Of a stretch of 29,062 nucleotides of DNA, positions 5,253 through 28,797 are shown piece after piece (positions within the stretch are counted from its first letter, which is position 1; each line of letters begins with the position of its first letter). Position numbers and translations under genes: made by a program. The stretch lies in IMG/VR virus record IMGVR_UViG_3300037189_005620, positions 1 through 29,062 of that record, one strand, 5' to 3'. The DNA is from a virus. Below the pieces are notes generated by a model. It was given only the letters and a program-made list of their open reading frames with translations. It made no database searches and was not told the origin of the DNA.

Positions 5253-5279
5253 GAAACCCCCATTAATTTGGGGGTTTTC
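5253..5279 (+). terminator. Intrinsic terminator after major tail gene
   Basis: AAACCCCCA (5254-5262) pairs with TGGGGGTTT (5269-5277) around loop TTAATT, with a TTTT run forming the 3' arm end. The C5A-TTAATT-TG5 core matches that of the terminator after the major capsid gene. Confidence 0.9.
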
Positions 5280-5282
5280 TAT

Positions 5283-22417: not shown

Positions 22418-22446
22418 TTTACAACAATTAATCAATATGTTATAAT
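22418..22446 (+). promoter_or_regulatory. Extended -10 promoter before the post-fibre genes
   Basis: TTTACA (22418-22423, one mismatch to TTGACA), a 17-bp spacer and TATAAT (22441-22446) preceded by TGT. The predicted start near 22453 leaves a very short leader with TGAGGA before ATG 22463. Confidence 0.65.
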
Positions 22447-22462
22447 CAAATAATGAGGAATT

Positions 22463-22882
22463 ATGATAACAGATAACGATATAAAATATAAAAAAATTGA
22501 AGGATATGCAGGATATGCTTTAGCCTGGATTATAGAAGAAGATTGCGTATTTACTAATGCTATGAATAAAAAGTATTTTGATTTATTTACCTCATTTAAT
22601 AATGTAATAGATATATCAAATCAATATCCTGAACATAACGGCCTAACTGTCAGACTATTAAAAAATGGTGAAGTCTTAGAAGATTTTCAGACATCAGAAT
22701 ATTTTGGTAGTATTTTATTAAGTAATCCAATTATAATTGATTTAATGGAATGGCCATATGGTGCATATGTAGAAGAGCTTAAATGTAAATTTATAAATAA
22801 TGAATTTGTTTTTTCTCATATAGATAAAACTAATTTAGATCCATTTCCTGGGGGTAAAATACTGGGAGGTCAAAAACTGTAA
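22463..22882 (+). CDS. Protein of unknown function next to fibre genes
   Basis: A 139-residue acidic protein I do not recognise. It has no signal peptide, membrane segment or clear catalytic motif. The centre (DLFTSFNNVIDISNQYPEHNGLTVRLLKNGEVLEDFQTSEYFG) looks beta-rich, and the end is GGKILGGQKL. TGAGGA lies 6 nt before ATG 22463, and a good promoter is placed just upstream, so it is the first gene of the group that includes the DUF6171-like protein and the glycosyltransferase. It overlaps the next gene by 1 nt (TAATG). A role in fibre modification or assembly is a guess from position. Confidence 0.6.
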   Translation: MITDNDIKYKKIEGYAGYALAWIIEEDCVFTNAMNKKYFDLFTSFNNVIDISNQYPEHNGLTVRLLKNGEVLEDFQTSEYFGSILLSNPIIIDLMEWPYGAYVEELKCKFINNEFVFSHIDKTNLDPFPGGKILGGQKL

Positions 22883-25428: not shown

Positions 25429-25456
25429 TTGACAGCATAGTTTAATATGTTACAAT
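25429..25456 (+). promoter_or_regulatory. Strong promoter before the replication-region genes
   Basis: A perfect TTGACA (25429-25434), a 16-bp spacer and TACAAT (25451-25456) preceded by TGT. The transcript should begin near 25463. It is the best -35 seen in the window. Confidence 0.75.
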
Positions 25457-25467
25457 TTTATTGTAAC
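25449..25467 (+). promoter_or_regulatory. Perfect palindrome over the -10 (putative operator)
   Basis: GTTACAATTTTATTGTAAC is an 8-bp perfect inverted repeat with a 3-bp centre. It covers the whole -10 and reaches the expected start point. A dimeric repressor bound here would block the promoter. No counterpart is present at the other promoters of the window. Confidence 0.55.
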
Positions 25468-25471
25468 TTAT

Positions 25472-25497
25472 AAAGTCACGACCGTCGTGACTTTTTT
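25472..25497 (+). terminator. Hairpin terminator or attenuator in the leader
   Basis: A perfect 10-bp stem AAAGTCACGA (25472-25481) / TCGTGACTTT (25485-25494) with loop CCG and a T-run up to 25497. It can end the upstream structural operon. Since it lies about 10-35 nt after the predicted start of the 25429 promoter, it could also attenuate that transcript. Confidence 0.75.
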
Positions 25498-25513
25498 AAT
25501 TTAAGGATAGTAA

Positions 25514-26329
25514 ATGTCTAACGATTTAAAATGGATGTTGTCGTCTGATCAGCAGTTCCCATATCAAGACGATAAAGCCATTGAGCTTTGGTTTAAAGTA
25601 ATGAAGTGGTTTAAACCAGATGTAGTTGATTATCTTGGTGATACAGATGATCAAGCATGTTATAGTAAGTACACAGACGGTAAGCCAACAGAATTTTTAA
25701 AAGCATATAAAAATGATGATGTCACCAACGATTTAGAATTAATGCTTAAGGATATGAAATTAGAAGCAAGCGGTGCTCGTGAATTCTATGCTAGAACTAG
25801 AAAGATGCTTCCAAATGCACAATTATTTTCTGCATTAGGAAATCATGATATTAGAATTTTTGATTATCTTGAAAAAAAGATTCCAGAATATGCAAAGCAT
25901 GTAACACCAGAAGCTTTATGGAGTTTAGATTCTTTGGGATATGAATATATTTATTATAATGAATTACCTAAACGCAGATTTGGCGACATACATGTTCATC
26001 ACGGAATGTCAGTTTCAGCAACTGGTGCCATTAGAAAAGATATGGAAGACTTACAAGTATCTTTAATTCGTGGACATTCTCATAGAATTGCCTCACATAT
26101 GGTAACTTATGAATTAAGAAATAAAGGCAAGGGCGAAACAATTAGAGGTTATGAGATTGGACACATGTGTGATGAAAAGGGTCCAGGAATGAAATATACT
26201 CAACACCATGATTGGCAAAAAGGATTTGCTGTTGCTCATATTGAAAATGGAAAGTATCCTCATATTAATATGATTCACATATCACCAGACTATACATGTG
26301 TTGTTGATGGAAAGTTGTTTACTTTATAA
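25514..26329 (+). CDS. Calcineurin-like metallophosphoesterase
   Basis: The 271-residue protein carries the five metal-binding blocks of the family: D12-Q-Q (the usual DxH with Gln in place of His), G42-D43-T-D-D46, G109-N-H-D112, H161-H162-G, and G186-H-S-H189. Two divalent metals bound there would hydrolyse phosphodiesters or phosphomonoesters. The Gln in block I is common in phage members. The gene is the first one behind a strong, possibly repressed promoter, with AAGGA before ATG 25514, and heads the replication region, so a role in nucleic-acid processing or repair is plausible but not proven. Substrate cannot be predicted from the sequence. Confidence 0.85.
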   Translation: MSNDLKWMLSSDQQFPYQDDKAIELWFKVMKWFKPDVVDYLGDTDDQACYSKYTDGKPTEFLKAYKNDDVTNDLELMLKDMKLEASGAREFYARTRKMLPNAQLFSALGNHDIRIFDYLEKKIPEYAKHVTPEALWSLDSLGYEYIYYNELPKRRFGDIHVHHGMSVSATGAIRKDMEDLQVSLIRGHSHRIASHMVTYELRNKGKGETIRGYEIGHMCDEKGPGMKYTQHHDWQKGFAVAHIENGKYPHINMIHISPDYTCVVDGKLFTL

Positions 26330-26514
26330 TGTGGTGTGCTAAATGTTCTGGAAGAGTTTTTGTTGATAGAGTATTTTCTCAAAAACTACACATAGAGTTA
26401 TTTTGTATTTTATGTGGTAAGCGCTGGATGATCAATAAAGAAACGAACAGATTTGGAAAATGGTTAGAAAAAAGAGATCGGGAATACGCAAAAAATTTCT
26501 CTATTTTTTCTTAA
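26329..26514 (+). CDS. Small zinc-ribbon protein
   Basis: A 61-residue protein with two CxxC knuckles (C3/C6 and C26/C29) separated by about 19 residues, the layout of a zinc ribbon. A basic tail (RFGKWLEKRDREYAKNF) follows. It overlaps the preceding stop by 1 nt (TAATG). Proteins of this kind often bind nucleic acid or mediate protein contacts. Its last 55 nt overlap the next gene in another frame, an overlap longer than usual here. Confidence 0.65.
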   Translation: MWCAKCSGRVFVDRVFSQKLHIELFCILCGKRWMINKETNRFGKWLEKRDREYAKNFSIFS

Positions 26515-26939
26515 ATAATCAATTACATAAAGTAATTAGATTGTCTAGGGCGAAAGATGAAATCATTGCTTGGCGCTATTCAGATAAAAAAAGAGTCCTA
26601 TATTCTTATGTAGATGTACAAAAAAATATGGAGAATGCTTATACTATTACACAAGTTGGTGCAATATTGGGTAGACATAAAGTTACTATTGAGGAATATA
26701 TTCTTCAAGGTAAAATTAGTACACCTCAAAAAGTTTACCCAATAAGCAATCCAGACAGTACTTGGTCTAAATTTATGTTTAGCGAATCTGATATATTAAA
26801 ACTACATGAATATATTCTAGAAGCTGGGTATACAAAAAATATACCATCTAGGGCAGAATTAAGGGCACTTCTCAAAAATAACATGATATTGTATACTAAG
26901 ACCGAAACAGGGTTCGTACCAGTATGGAAGGCGGAGTAG
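26460..26939 (+). CDS. HTH (MerR/excisionase-like) DNA-binding protein
   Basis: The 159-residue basic protein has a middle region (residues about 59-110) of winged-helix type: AYTITQVGAILGRHKVTIEEYILQGKIS, then YPISN and FSESDILKLHEYI. This resembles MerR/excisionase-like helix-turn-helix domains, in which a tyrosine or arginine follows the recognition helix and a wing precedes the final helix. Residues about 23-55 (HKVIRLSRAKDEIIAWRYSDKKRVLYSYVDV) form a beta-rich N-terminal part seen in actinophage homologues placed near helicase genes. ATG 26460 overlaps the upstream gene by 55 nt with weak ribosome binding; the true start may be further in. It may control gene expression or act in replication. 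Confidence 0.65.
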   Translation: MVRKKRSGIRKKFLYFFLNNQLHKVIRLSRAKDEIIAWRYSDKKRVLYSYVDVQKNMENAYTITQVGAILGRHKVTIEEYILQGKISTPQKVYPISNPDSTWSKFMFSESDILKLHEYILEAGYTKNIPSRAELRALLKNNMILYTKTETGFVPVWKAE

Positions 26940-27252: not shown

Positions 27253-27562
27253 TACCAAAGAACCATATATTTTATTAACCATGTATCAAAATATGTATAT
27301 GGAAAAATATGGCAAAACCCCTTTTATGAATAAATATAGAGAGAAGTGGGCTATGCAAGATGTCATAGATAGTGTAGGATATACCCGTGCAAAAGAATTA
27401 TTGGAGTACTATTTTACAACTGGTAAATATGGACACCCATTGCAGTTCTTCTTTTTTAATTTTGATAAGATTGATATAATGCAAAGAGAAATTGAGAAAG
27501 ACAAGAAAACCCGTAAGGCTTTACAAGAAGCTACAAAGAGATTAGTTGAGGGTGAAAAGTGA
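27245..27562 (+). CDS. Possible helicase-loading or replication accessory protein
   Basis: The 105-residue protein is helical and basic: YILLTMYQNMYMEKYGKTPFMNKYREKWAMQDVIDSVGYTRAKELLEYYFTTGKYGHPLQFFFFNFDKI, then a charged C-terminal helix. Proteins with 'NKYREKWAxxDxIDxxGxxRAxExxxYYFxTGxxGHPxxxxxxNxDK' lie immediately upstream of DnaB-like helicases in many actinophages, which suggests helicase loading or regulation; this is inferred from synteny. Start is GTG 27245, overlapping the preceding gene by 8 nt; overlaps the helicase gene by 4 nt (GTGA). Confidence 0.65.
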   Translation: MANTKEPYILLTMYQNMYMEKYGKTPFMNKYREKWAMQDVIDSVGYTRAKELLEYYFTTGKYGHPLQFFFFNFDKIDIMQREIEKDKKTRKALQEATKRLVEGEK

Positions 27563-28797
27563 ATACAGAAGCAACGTTAATATCAGCAGTATGCAAGAAC
27601 AAGGATATAAGTACATTACTTGCAGACAATGTTGATGATTTATTTACTTCACATAGAGATATCTGGGAAGGTCTAAAGTCCTACTATTATAAATTCAAGG
27701 CTGTTCCAGAAACTGGTGTACTGCAAGAAAAATTTAAAGACTTTGAACCTGATTTAAATGTAAAGGCAGAAACTGGATATTACCTAGATAAATTAAAAAA
27801 TGAATATTTATCTGCAAGATTAAAGAGCATTATTCTTCAAGGTGGATCTGCATTAAAAGAAGATGCAGCATCTAGAGTTTTAGCAGACATGCAAAGCAAA
27901 CTTGCTGGCCTTGCTAGATTTACAAATAACGTTAGAGATTTAGATATTACAGATCTAGATGCAGCAGAAAGACACTTTACATCCGTTAAAGATAGATCTG
28001 CAGCAATGGGCGGAAGTCCAGGAATTAAAACTGGTTTTCAAGCAATTGATACTGCATATCCAACAGGCATGGCTCCAGGACATTTAATTGTTGCTATTGG
28101 TTGGCCAGGAAAAGGCAAGACATGGTTTACTTCATATCTTGCATGTAAAGCTTGGGAGCAAGGATTCAAACCAATGATCATATCACTAGAAATGTCACCA
28201 GAAAATATGCGTGATCGTATTTACACAATGTTAGGATCTGGTTTATTTAAAGCCAGCGATTTGTCTAAGGGAGATATTAATATAGATGATTTCAAATCAT
28301 GGGGACAAAAAAAGTTTGAAGGAAAGAATAGTTTTGTATTGGTATCAAATGAAGGAACAGCAGAAGTTACACCAGCTACTGTCCAAGGTAAAATTGATCA
28401 ACACAAACCCGACCTTGTTATATTGGATTATCATCAGTTGTTTAATGATAACAAACGCTCTAACTCAGAAGTAGAACGAAATAGAAATATTTCTCGTGAG
28501 TTTAAATTACTAGCAGTATCTAATAATATTCCAATTATTGATATTACTGCTGCAACTGCAGATGATATTTCTGATCAAGATAATCCACCGATGATGTCAC
28601 AGGTAGCATGGTCAAAGGCTATTGAGTACGATGCAGATATGGCTATGGCTATCCATAGATATCCAAATACAAATTTAATTGAAGTAGTATCACGTAAAAA
28701 TCGTCATGGTCATGAATTTGATTTCCATTTAGATTGGGATATTAATAGAGGTATTATCAAAGAATTGTATGATTATGTACCATCACAAACCAATTAA
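27559..28797 (+). CDS. DnaB-like replicative helicase
   Basis: The 412-residue protein has a short DnaB-N-like helical domain (EATLISAVCKNKDISTLLADNVDDLFTSHRDIW...) and a RecA-like ATPase domain. Walker A is G181-W-P-G-K-G-K-T188, Walker B is D285-L-V-I-L-D-Y-H, followed by NRNISREFKLLAVSNNIPIIDITA (the region of the sensor/Q motif) and VVSRKNRHGHEFDFHLDWD near the end (DnaB motif 4 / arginine finger area). It should unwind the fork as a hexamer. It is smaller than cellular DnaB (about 450-470) as usual in these phages. GTG 27559 has GAGGGTG upstream and a 4-nt overlap with the preceding gene. Confidence 0.92.
   Translation: MNTEATLISAVCKNKDISTLLADNVDDLFTSHRDIWEGLKSYYYKFKAVPETGVLQEKFKDFEPDLNVKAETGYYLDKLKNEYLSARLKSIILQGGSALKEDAASRVLADMQSKLAGLARFTNNVRDLDITDLDAAERHFTSVKDRSAAMGGSPGIKTGFQAIDTAYPTGMAPGHLIVAIGWPGKGKTWFTSYLACKAWEQGFKPMIISLEMSPENMRDRIYTMLGSGLFKASDLSKGDINIDDFKSWGQKKFEGKNSFVLVSNEGTAEVTPATVQGKIDQHKPDLVILDYHQLFNDNKRSNSEVERNRNISREFKLLAVSNNIPIIDITAATADDISDQDNPPMMSQVAWSKAIEYDADMAMAIHRYPNTNLIEVVSRKNRHGHEFDFHLDWDINRGIIKELYDYVPSQTN

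Follow-up and report, generated by a model that had tools for sequence, protein, structure and literature searches.

The succession of a promoter, a pause and a terminator within one control region has precedents in lambda pR′ and in AlpA (PMC7969949). The AlpA-controlled alpB promoter of Pseudomonas has a sigma-dependent pause element at −1 to +5 (PMC9371919) and a terminator just ahead of the first gene (PMC7969949, PMC9371919), and AlpA binds between −35 and −10. In Caulobacter, the gene transfer agent promoter is under a phage-derived two-tier control by GafY and GafZ, which combines promoter regulation with antitermination; there the palindrome occupies the −35/−10 spacer of the promoter, and the terminator comes only past the first gene (PMC11150451). 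Pleft of the mycobacteriophages L5 and D29 is an actinophage early promoter from which promoter-proximal RNA greatly exceeds the downstream mRNA, and its region of about 500 nt has asymmetric operators and no evident stem-loop terminator (PMC5712189). The classical repressor operator over −10/+1 is a two-fold symmetric site in a single copy.

The window, i.e. the whole stretch of DNA analysed here (29,062 bases of the IMG/VR virus record IMGVR_UViG_3300037189_005620), contains, from 25429 onwards, a cassette that resembles each of these systems in some respects. The promoter TTGACA-N16-TACAAT spans 25429–25456 and comprises the −35 element TTGACA (25429–25434, +) and, set 16 nt past it, an extended −10, TATGT-TACAAT (25446–25456, +). 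From the position of the promoter, transcription is predicted to start 7 nt past the −10, at 25463 (+). The −10 and the predicted start are both covered by the dyad GTTACAAT-TTT-ATTGTAAC (25449–25467, assigned to neither strand). In the initially transcribed region, the −10-like TAACTT (TAnnnT) at +2 to +7 (25464–25469, +) is a candidate sigma-dependent pause element. A predicted intrinsic terminator follows (25472–25497, +), consisting of the 10-bp hairpin AAAGTCACGA-CCG-TCGTGACTTT (25472–25494) and a T6 tract at 25492–25497, of which three T lie beyond the hairpin; an RNA started at 25463 and terminated there is predicted to measure about 35 nt. The ribosome-binding site AAGGA (25503–25507, +) precedes the ATG of the first gene at 25514, 16 nt past the terminator. 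Each RNA from the cassette promoter must pass the hairpin, and the window sequence leaves no space for a second promoter between terminator and ATG. An earlier note on this DNA had described a TTGACA/TACAAT promoter, a palindrome over the −10 and the start, and a 10-bp hairpin with a T-run, all of which are in place, and the terminated RNA of about 35 nt that it expected agrees with the predicted +1 and the position of the hairpin. What it called a perfect 19-bp palindrome is, more exactly, a central TTT flanked by two perfect 8-bp arms, with 16 of the 19 positions symmetric, and its distance of about 10 nt to the hairpin is right when counted from the predicted +1 but not from the palindrome, past which the hairpin begins after 4 nt.

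The first gene encodes a metallophosphoesterase (MPE; phrog_221, 25514–26329, +), the second a 61-aa Cys-rich protein (phrog_12850, 26329–26514, +) and the third a MerR-like winged-HTH protein (phrog_9440, 26460–26939, +); a DnaB-like replicative helicase (27559–28797, +) lies farther along the presumed operon. The genes upstream of the cassette all run in the same direction, with no other terminator between them and the cassette promoter. By its match to the consensus, this promoter ranks in the top two of the window and within the top 2–8 in most of the full related genomes. The other top-scoring promoter of the window, TTTACA-N17-TATGTTATAAT (22418–22446), adjoins an ORF at 22463 and has no hairpin. 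Ordinary C-rich terminators are present at 1241–1270 (GCCCCCAATTAATTTTGGGGGC) and 5254–5280 (AAACCCCCATTAATTTGGGGGTTT), each preceding the next promoter or gene, which is the usual order, unlike that of the cassette. A search for MPE relatives in bacterial genomes, made with the host in mind, found none. The genome G032 encodes a WhiB-family transcription factor (PF02467; 46286–46663, −), conserved in 16 records, which supports an actinobacterial host. In the same genome (L527, L532), 2OG-Fe(II) oxygenase (PF13640) is matched above the curated cut-off by at least four separate proteins and weakly by a fifth, and several of these oxygenase-like proteins are conserved across 18 of 20 records.

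The comparison as a whole took in about 150 distinct cassettes from related phages. A first broad promoter scan across IMG/VR was too unspecific, and the conservation counts refer to 95 distinct MPE-upstream regions from IMG/VR, which were anchored on MPE without selection for the element. The −35/−10 pair is kept in 94 of the 95 regions (TTGAC followed by A, G or T), mostly as TTGACA-N16-TATGYTANAAT. The information content over 123 freshwater cassettes was about 1.3–2.0 bits per position in the extended −10 compared with 0.1–0.9 at most positions of the −35/−10 spacer, a measure that, like the tree used below, also includes sequences fetched by promoter or stem motifs, sets in which the conservation of those motifs is overstated. 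The stem is GTCAC/GTGAC in 65 of the 95 regions, GTCAC/GTGGC with a T.G wobble in 6, GTCGC/GCGAC in 2 and GGCCATGA/TCATGGCC in 9, with another hairpin in 2 and none or a degenerate one in 11. The stem sequence varies with its pairing kept, as in GTCGC/GCGAC, GTCAC/GTGGC, GGTCACG/CGTGACC and GGCCATGA/TCATGGCC, and within the main clade the stem AAGTCACG/CGTGACTT is strongly conserved. Every one of the 73 scored relatives whose stem is GTCAC or GTCGC has a tract of 5–7 T, and T6 persists in the L448 group, in which the flank of the stem has changed from AAA/TTT to G/C. In almost every relative, the hairpin begins at about +9 to +12. In one clade (L007, L013, L023, L504 and relatives), a strong GGCCATGA hairpin occupies this position but no T tract follows, so that the hairpin is conserved separately from the U tract; some clades retain the promoter with no hairpin. 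Nearly all freshwater relatives preserve the order of promoter, hairpin and MPE, which is the core, usually with 5–7 T.

The layout is also found in nine cultured Streptomyces phages (Loccivirinae or close), whose MPE is about 43% identical and is preceded by TTGACA/T-N17/18-TAnnnT and then a 10–14-bp hairpin. Their U tracts are weak, and their hairpins are unrelated in sequence to the freshwater ones, with arms that have changed but remained complementary. The string CTTGTGT recurs in the −35/−10 spacer of most of the nine phages (L587, L590, L592–L597, L599), which are few and related, and is a candidate factor-binding element. The Rhodococcus phages, which have the closest cultured MPE (55–58% identity), show no gap and no cassette; in them and in the Wilnyevirus/Wakandavirus relatives, MPE lies directly behind the upstream gene. 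Upstream of MPE, the cassette layout is absent in Wilnyevirus, Wakandavirus and Byblos. The layout is therefore either old or was gained repeatedly, and what is kept of its hairpin is the structure.

Just after the predicted start, TAACAT or TAATAT (TAnnnT) at −1 to +5 is frequent in the relatives and overlaps the right arm of the dyad. A TAnnnT at −1 to +2 is found in most dyad regions and in 11 of 28 non-dyad regions, compared with 3.1 expected (maximum 9 in 2000 shuffles; the regions are not independent), and it is kept in several dyad-less lineages, for example as TTGTTTAATATC and TTCTTTAACATC. It shares its register with the sigma-dependent pause of AlpA and lambda Q; the likeness is suggestive only, as is the retention of TAnnnT, because the relatives are not independent. 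Like lambda pR′-tR′ with Q (and the Q of phage 21), the cassette would combine, in a phage context, a strong sigma-70 promoter, a −10-like element in the first transcribed bases and a terminator ahead of the first gene. Unlike the lambda region, it precedes a replication operon rather than late genes, and its terminator lies at +10 to +35 whereas that of lambda pR′ lies well downstream of the start; the gene lists yielded no Q-like gene, and the freshwater phages no conserved element in the −35/−10 spacer. AlpA/alpB has in common with the locus the terminator just ahead of the first gene and the register of the −10-like element in most relatives, and differs in the site bound by AlpA, since the extra element here is the dyad over −10 and +1. 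Pleft of L5/D29 would be alike in its excess of promoter-proximal RNA and unlike in its operators and its lack of a stem-loop terminator. Judged by sequence only, a sigma-70 promoter with an intrinsic terminator ahead of the first gene is a trait held in common with the Q/AlpA systems, but the −35/−10 factor-binding element is not conserved among the 123 freshwater cassettes. For this reason we do not claim membership in the Q/AlpA family; the similarity is one of logic only.

Inverted repeats of the size of the dyad are not rare in the A+T-rich DNA of the window (20 compared with 10.9 in local shuffles), and conservation is therefore its real test. In 33 of 66 distinct regions, the right arm matched the left arm (the extended −10 half, e.g. 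GTTACA) at every one of six bases, compared with 0.24 of 66 expected when the bases downstream of the −10 were shuffled and 12.4 of 66 (maximum 21 in 2000 tries) when left arms were permuted among phages, several of our chance estimates being simple shuffles that ignore relatedness. The matched arms occur as GTTACA/TGTAAC, GCTACA/TGTAGC, GTTATA/TATAAC and TACACT with GTGTA. On a tree of MPE proteins that includes 112 tips with the dyad, changes at the second pair fall on 14 branches; on 10 of these both arms changed together, where 0.65 would be expected, and the four single-arm changes leave three T.G and one C.A. The arms are spaced by 5, 6 or 7, and the C-G versions carry differing loops, which argues against a single swapped cassette, although phages may have exchanged the element. 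Roughly half of the distinct regions keep promoter and hairpin but have no perfect dyad, which makes the dyad, by this comparison, an optional, lineage-specific layer, under selection where it is present. The two-layer switch suggested by the earlier note thus fits the dyad-bearing lineages and not the others, and the palindrome is selected where present but has been lost in about half of the distinct relatives.

The simplest function for the dyad would be a site at which a dimeric repressor blocks the start. Its two-fold symmetry over −10/+1 and its single copy are those of a classical repressor operator; unlike such an operator, it has no cognate repressor found here, its arm spacing takes three values and its arms have repeatedly switched together. 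The Caulobacter promoter likewise has a palindrome, and a two-tier control such as may operate here, but both its palindrome and its terminator are placed differently. No other site in the window lies within 3 mismatches of the dyad pattern. The search for further copies in full genomes, which had been proposed as a check, returned the exact GTTACA dyad at a single site per dyad-bearing genome, and relaxed searches gave few near matches, all degenerate; an operator regulon was rejected on these grounds.

Neither HTH co-variation nor the correlation of gene-family presence and absence with the dyad in 17 genomes (G016, G029 and G035 were left out) revealed a cognate dyad protein, the latter giving no DNA-binding candidate. 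The winged-HTH protein at 26460, put forward earlier as the possible repressor, is not supported in this role: its recognition helix does not follow the T-A/C-G or lost dyads, although a contact change elsewhere is possible, and its gene type is conserved irrespective of dyad class and also occurs in phages without the cassette. No antiterminator or Q-like gene was identified in the gene lists; antiterminator proteins are too divergent for recognition by sequence. The only fold of the leader, which is about 35 nt long, is the terminator hairpin, with no alternative structure, and the leader had no significant family match in Rfam; a riboswitch or a leader peptide was rejected, there being no room for either and no significant Rfam match. 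Of the attenuation or antitermination envisaged for the locus, RNA-structure attenuation is therefore unlikely, and protein-mediated antitermination or partial read-through fits better.

Starting from the anatomy, the conservation, the paired evolution of the dyad and the retained TAnnnT, all read from sequences and their comparison, we infer a scheme of start site, termination, pausing, antitermination and repression. We give about even credence to its overall form, a promoter-proximal premature-termination gate controlling the MPE-HTH-DnaB operon, to which certain lineages would add a second layer at the start. Host RNA polymerase (sigma-A type) would start at about 25463 from the near-consensus promoter and meet the intrinsic terminator about 35 nt on, so that the default would be a short RNA and a low level of the operon. 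The operon would be expressed upon read-through, most likely aided by a promoter-loaded factor while the polymerase dwells at the −10-like element, by a logic like that of lambda pR′ and AlpA. In many lineages, including the window phage, the symmetric element over −10/+1 would bring in a further level of control, for which a dimeric repressor is the simplest candidate, and the terminator would also end transcripts from the upstream structural operon. The replication genes behind the cassette are probably switched by whether the polymerase passes or not, and a near-consensus promoter directly before a terminator would make sense if read-through is regulated. The earlier note already had the promoter and immediate terminator controlling entry into the replication region, and this is well supported by the conservation and the Streptomyces-phage layout. 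Against the gate stand the hairpin without a T tract in the GGCCATGA clade, the hairpin-less clades and the weak U tracts of the Streptomyces phages, and the conserved terminator may just be the end of the upstream operon.

In its full form, this last reading is possible but on balance unlikely. The hairpin would be the terminator of the upstream structural operon, the next promoter would lie before it by chance, and constitutive partial read-through would set a modest level of the replication operon without any regulation, in agreement with the co-directional upstream genes, with the lack of another terminator ahead of the cassette promoter, and with the Rhodococcus phages and Wilnyevirus/Wakandavirus relatives, in which MPE follows the upstream gene without a cassette. 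If nothing were regulated, however, it would be odd that one of the best promoters of the genome is kept before a terminator in both Streptomyces and freshwater phages, and elsewhere in the window the terminator precedes the promoter or gene.

For the dyad, we regard it as rather unlikely that it is an RNA hairpin acting only in upstream-derived transcripts, in tandem with the terminator; promoter-started RNAs would lack it because the left arm precedes +1. Among the rival readings, such a hairpin would account best for the conservation of pairing instead of sequence: T-A and C-G have switched on about ten branches, the right arm matches the left for both TACAAT/TACACT and TACA/TATA, the loop is 5, 6 or 7 long, and T.G intermediates outnumber C.A. 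The count of T.G to C.A, 3 to 1, is too small to separate RNA from DNA symmetry, the A+T-rich stem lacks a T tract, and the function of an extra hairpin is not evident. The same phages have a terminator hairpin enclosing an extended −10 ahead of a tail gene: upstream of this tail-region gene, hairpins such as GCCCTTATGC-TAAAATTG-GCATAAGGGC-TTTT enclose the extended −10 TATGCTAAAAT, and their arms co-change (G032 8413, −; G033 53328, −; G036 66751, −; G038 31848, +; G001 21850, +; G019 17816, +). A transcript started inside such a hairpin would be without its left arm and would not be terminated there. For the cassette, an improbable reading is that the terminator sorts transcripts by origin, such that upstream RNAs, carrying both dyad arms, would stop and promoter-started RNAs, without the left arm, would read on; if true, the −10 element would double as one arm of a regulatory RNA hairpin.

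It is likewise improbable that the hairpin is no terminator but a 5′-UTR element that shields the MPE mRNA from decay or tunes its translation. Its start at about +9 to +12 in most relatives and the strong hairpins with weak or absent T tracts in one clade and in the Streptomyces phages would suit such an element, but not the 5–7 T in 73 of 73 scored main-clade sequences or the T6 that outlasted the altered stem flank in the L448 group. The chance is slight that the RNA of about 35 nt is itself the product, as a small regulatory or decoy RNA, with the operon fed by leak. A strong promoter with an immediate terminator and the strongly conserved AAGTCACG/CGTGACTT stem of the main clade would be expected of it, and there is a precedent in the toxic, abundant small RNA from Pleft of mycobacteriophages L5 and D29 (PMC5712189). 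The RNA sequence is, however, unrelated in the Streptomyces phages and the GGCCATGA clade despite the same layout, Rfam gave no significant match, and cassette sets selected by the stem motif overstate stem conservation. A bidirectional promoter is suggested by the presence of TACAAT on either strand, with the two starts some 10 bp from each other, and such promoters are known from E. coli with starts 10–23 bp apart (PMC12825309). It was rejected as highly improbable because the minus-strand −10 (TAnnnT) is not kept, its final T having disappeared from many relatives that bear the dyad (GGTGTAAC, GTTGTAGC, TGCTGTAAC), and because the position immediately ahead of the −10 co-varies despite having no specific role in a −10.

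Little is known about the timing of replication genes in large (100–140 kb) actinobacteriophages. A promoter-then-terminator arrangement kept from Streptomyces phages to abundant freshwater phages would offer a concrete and easily tested switch, and because the layout is common to cultured Streptomyces phages, it can be tested without the uncultured host. The cassette might thereby serve as a lead to a new antiterminator or repressor.
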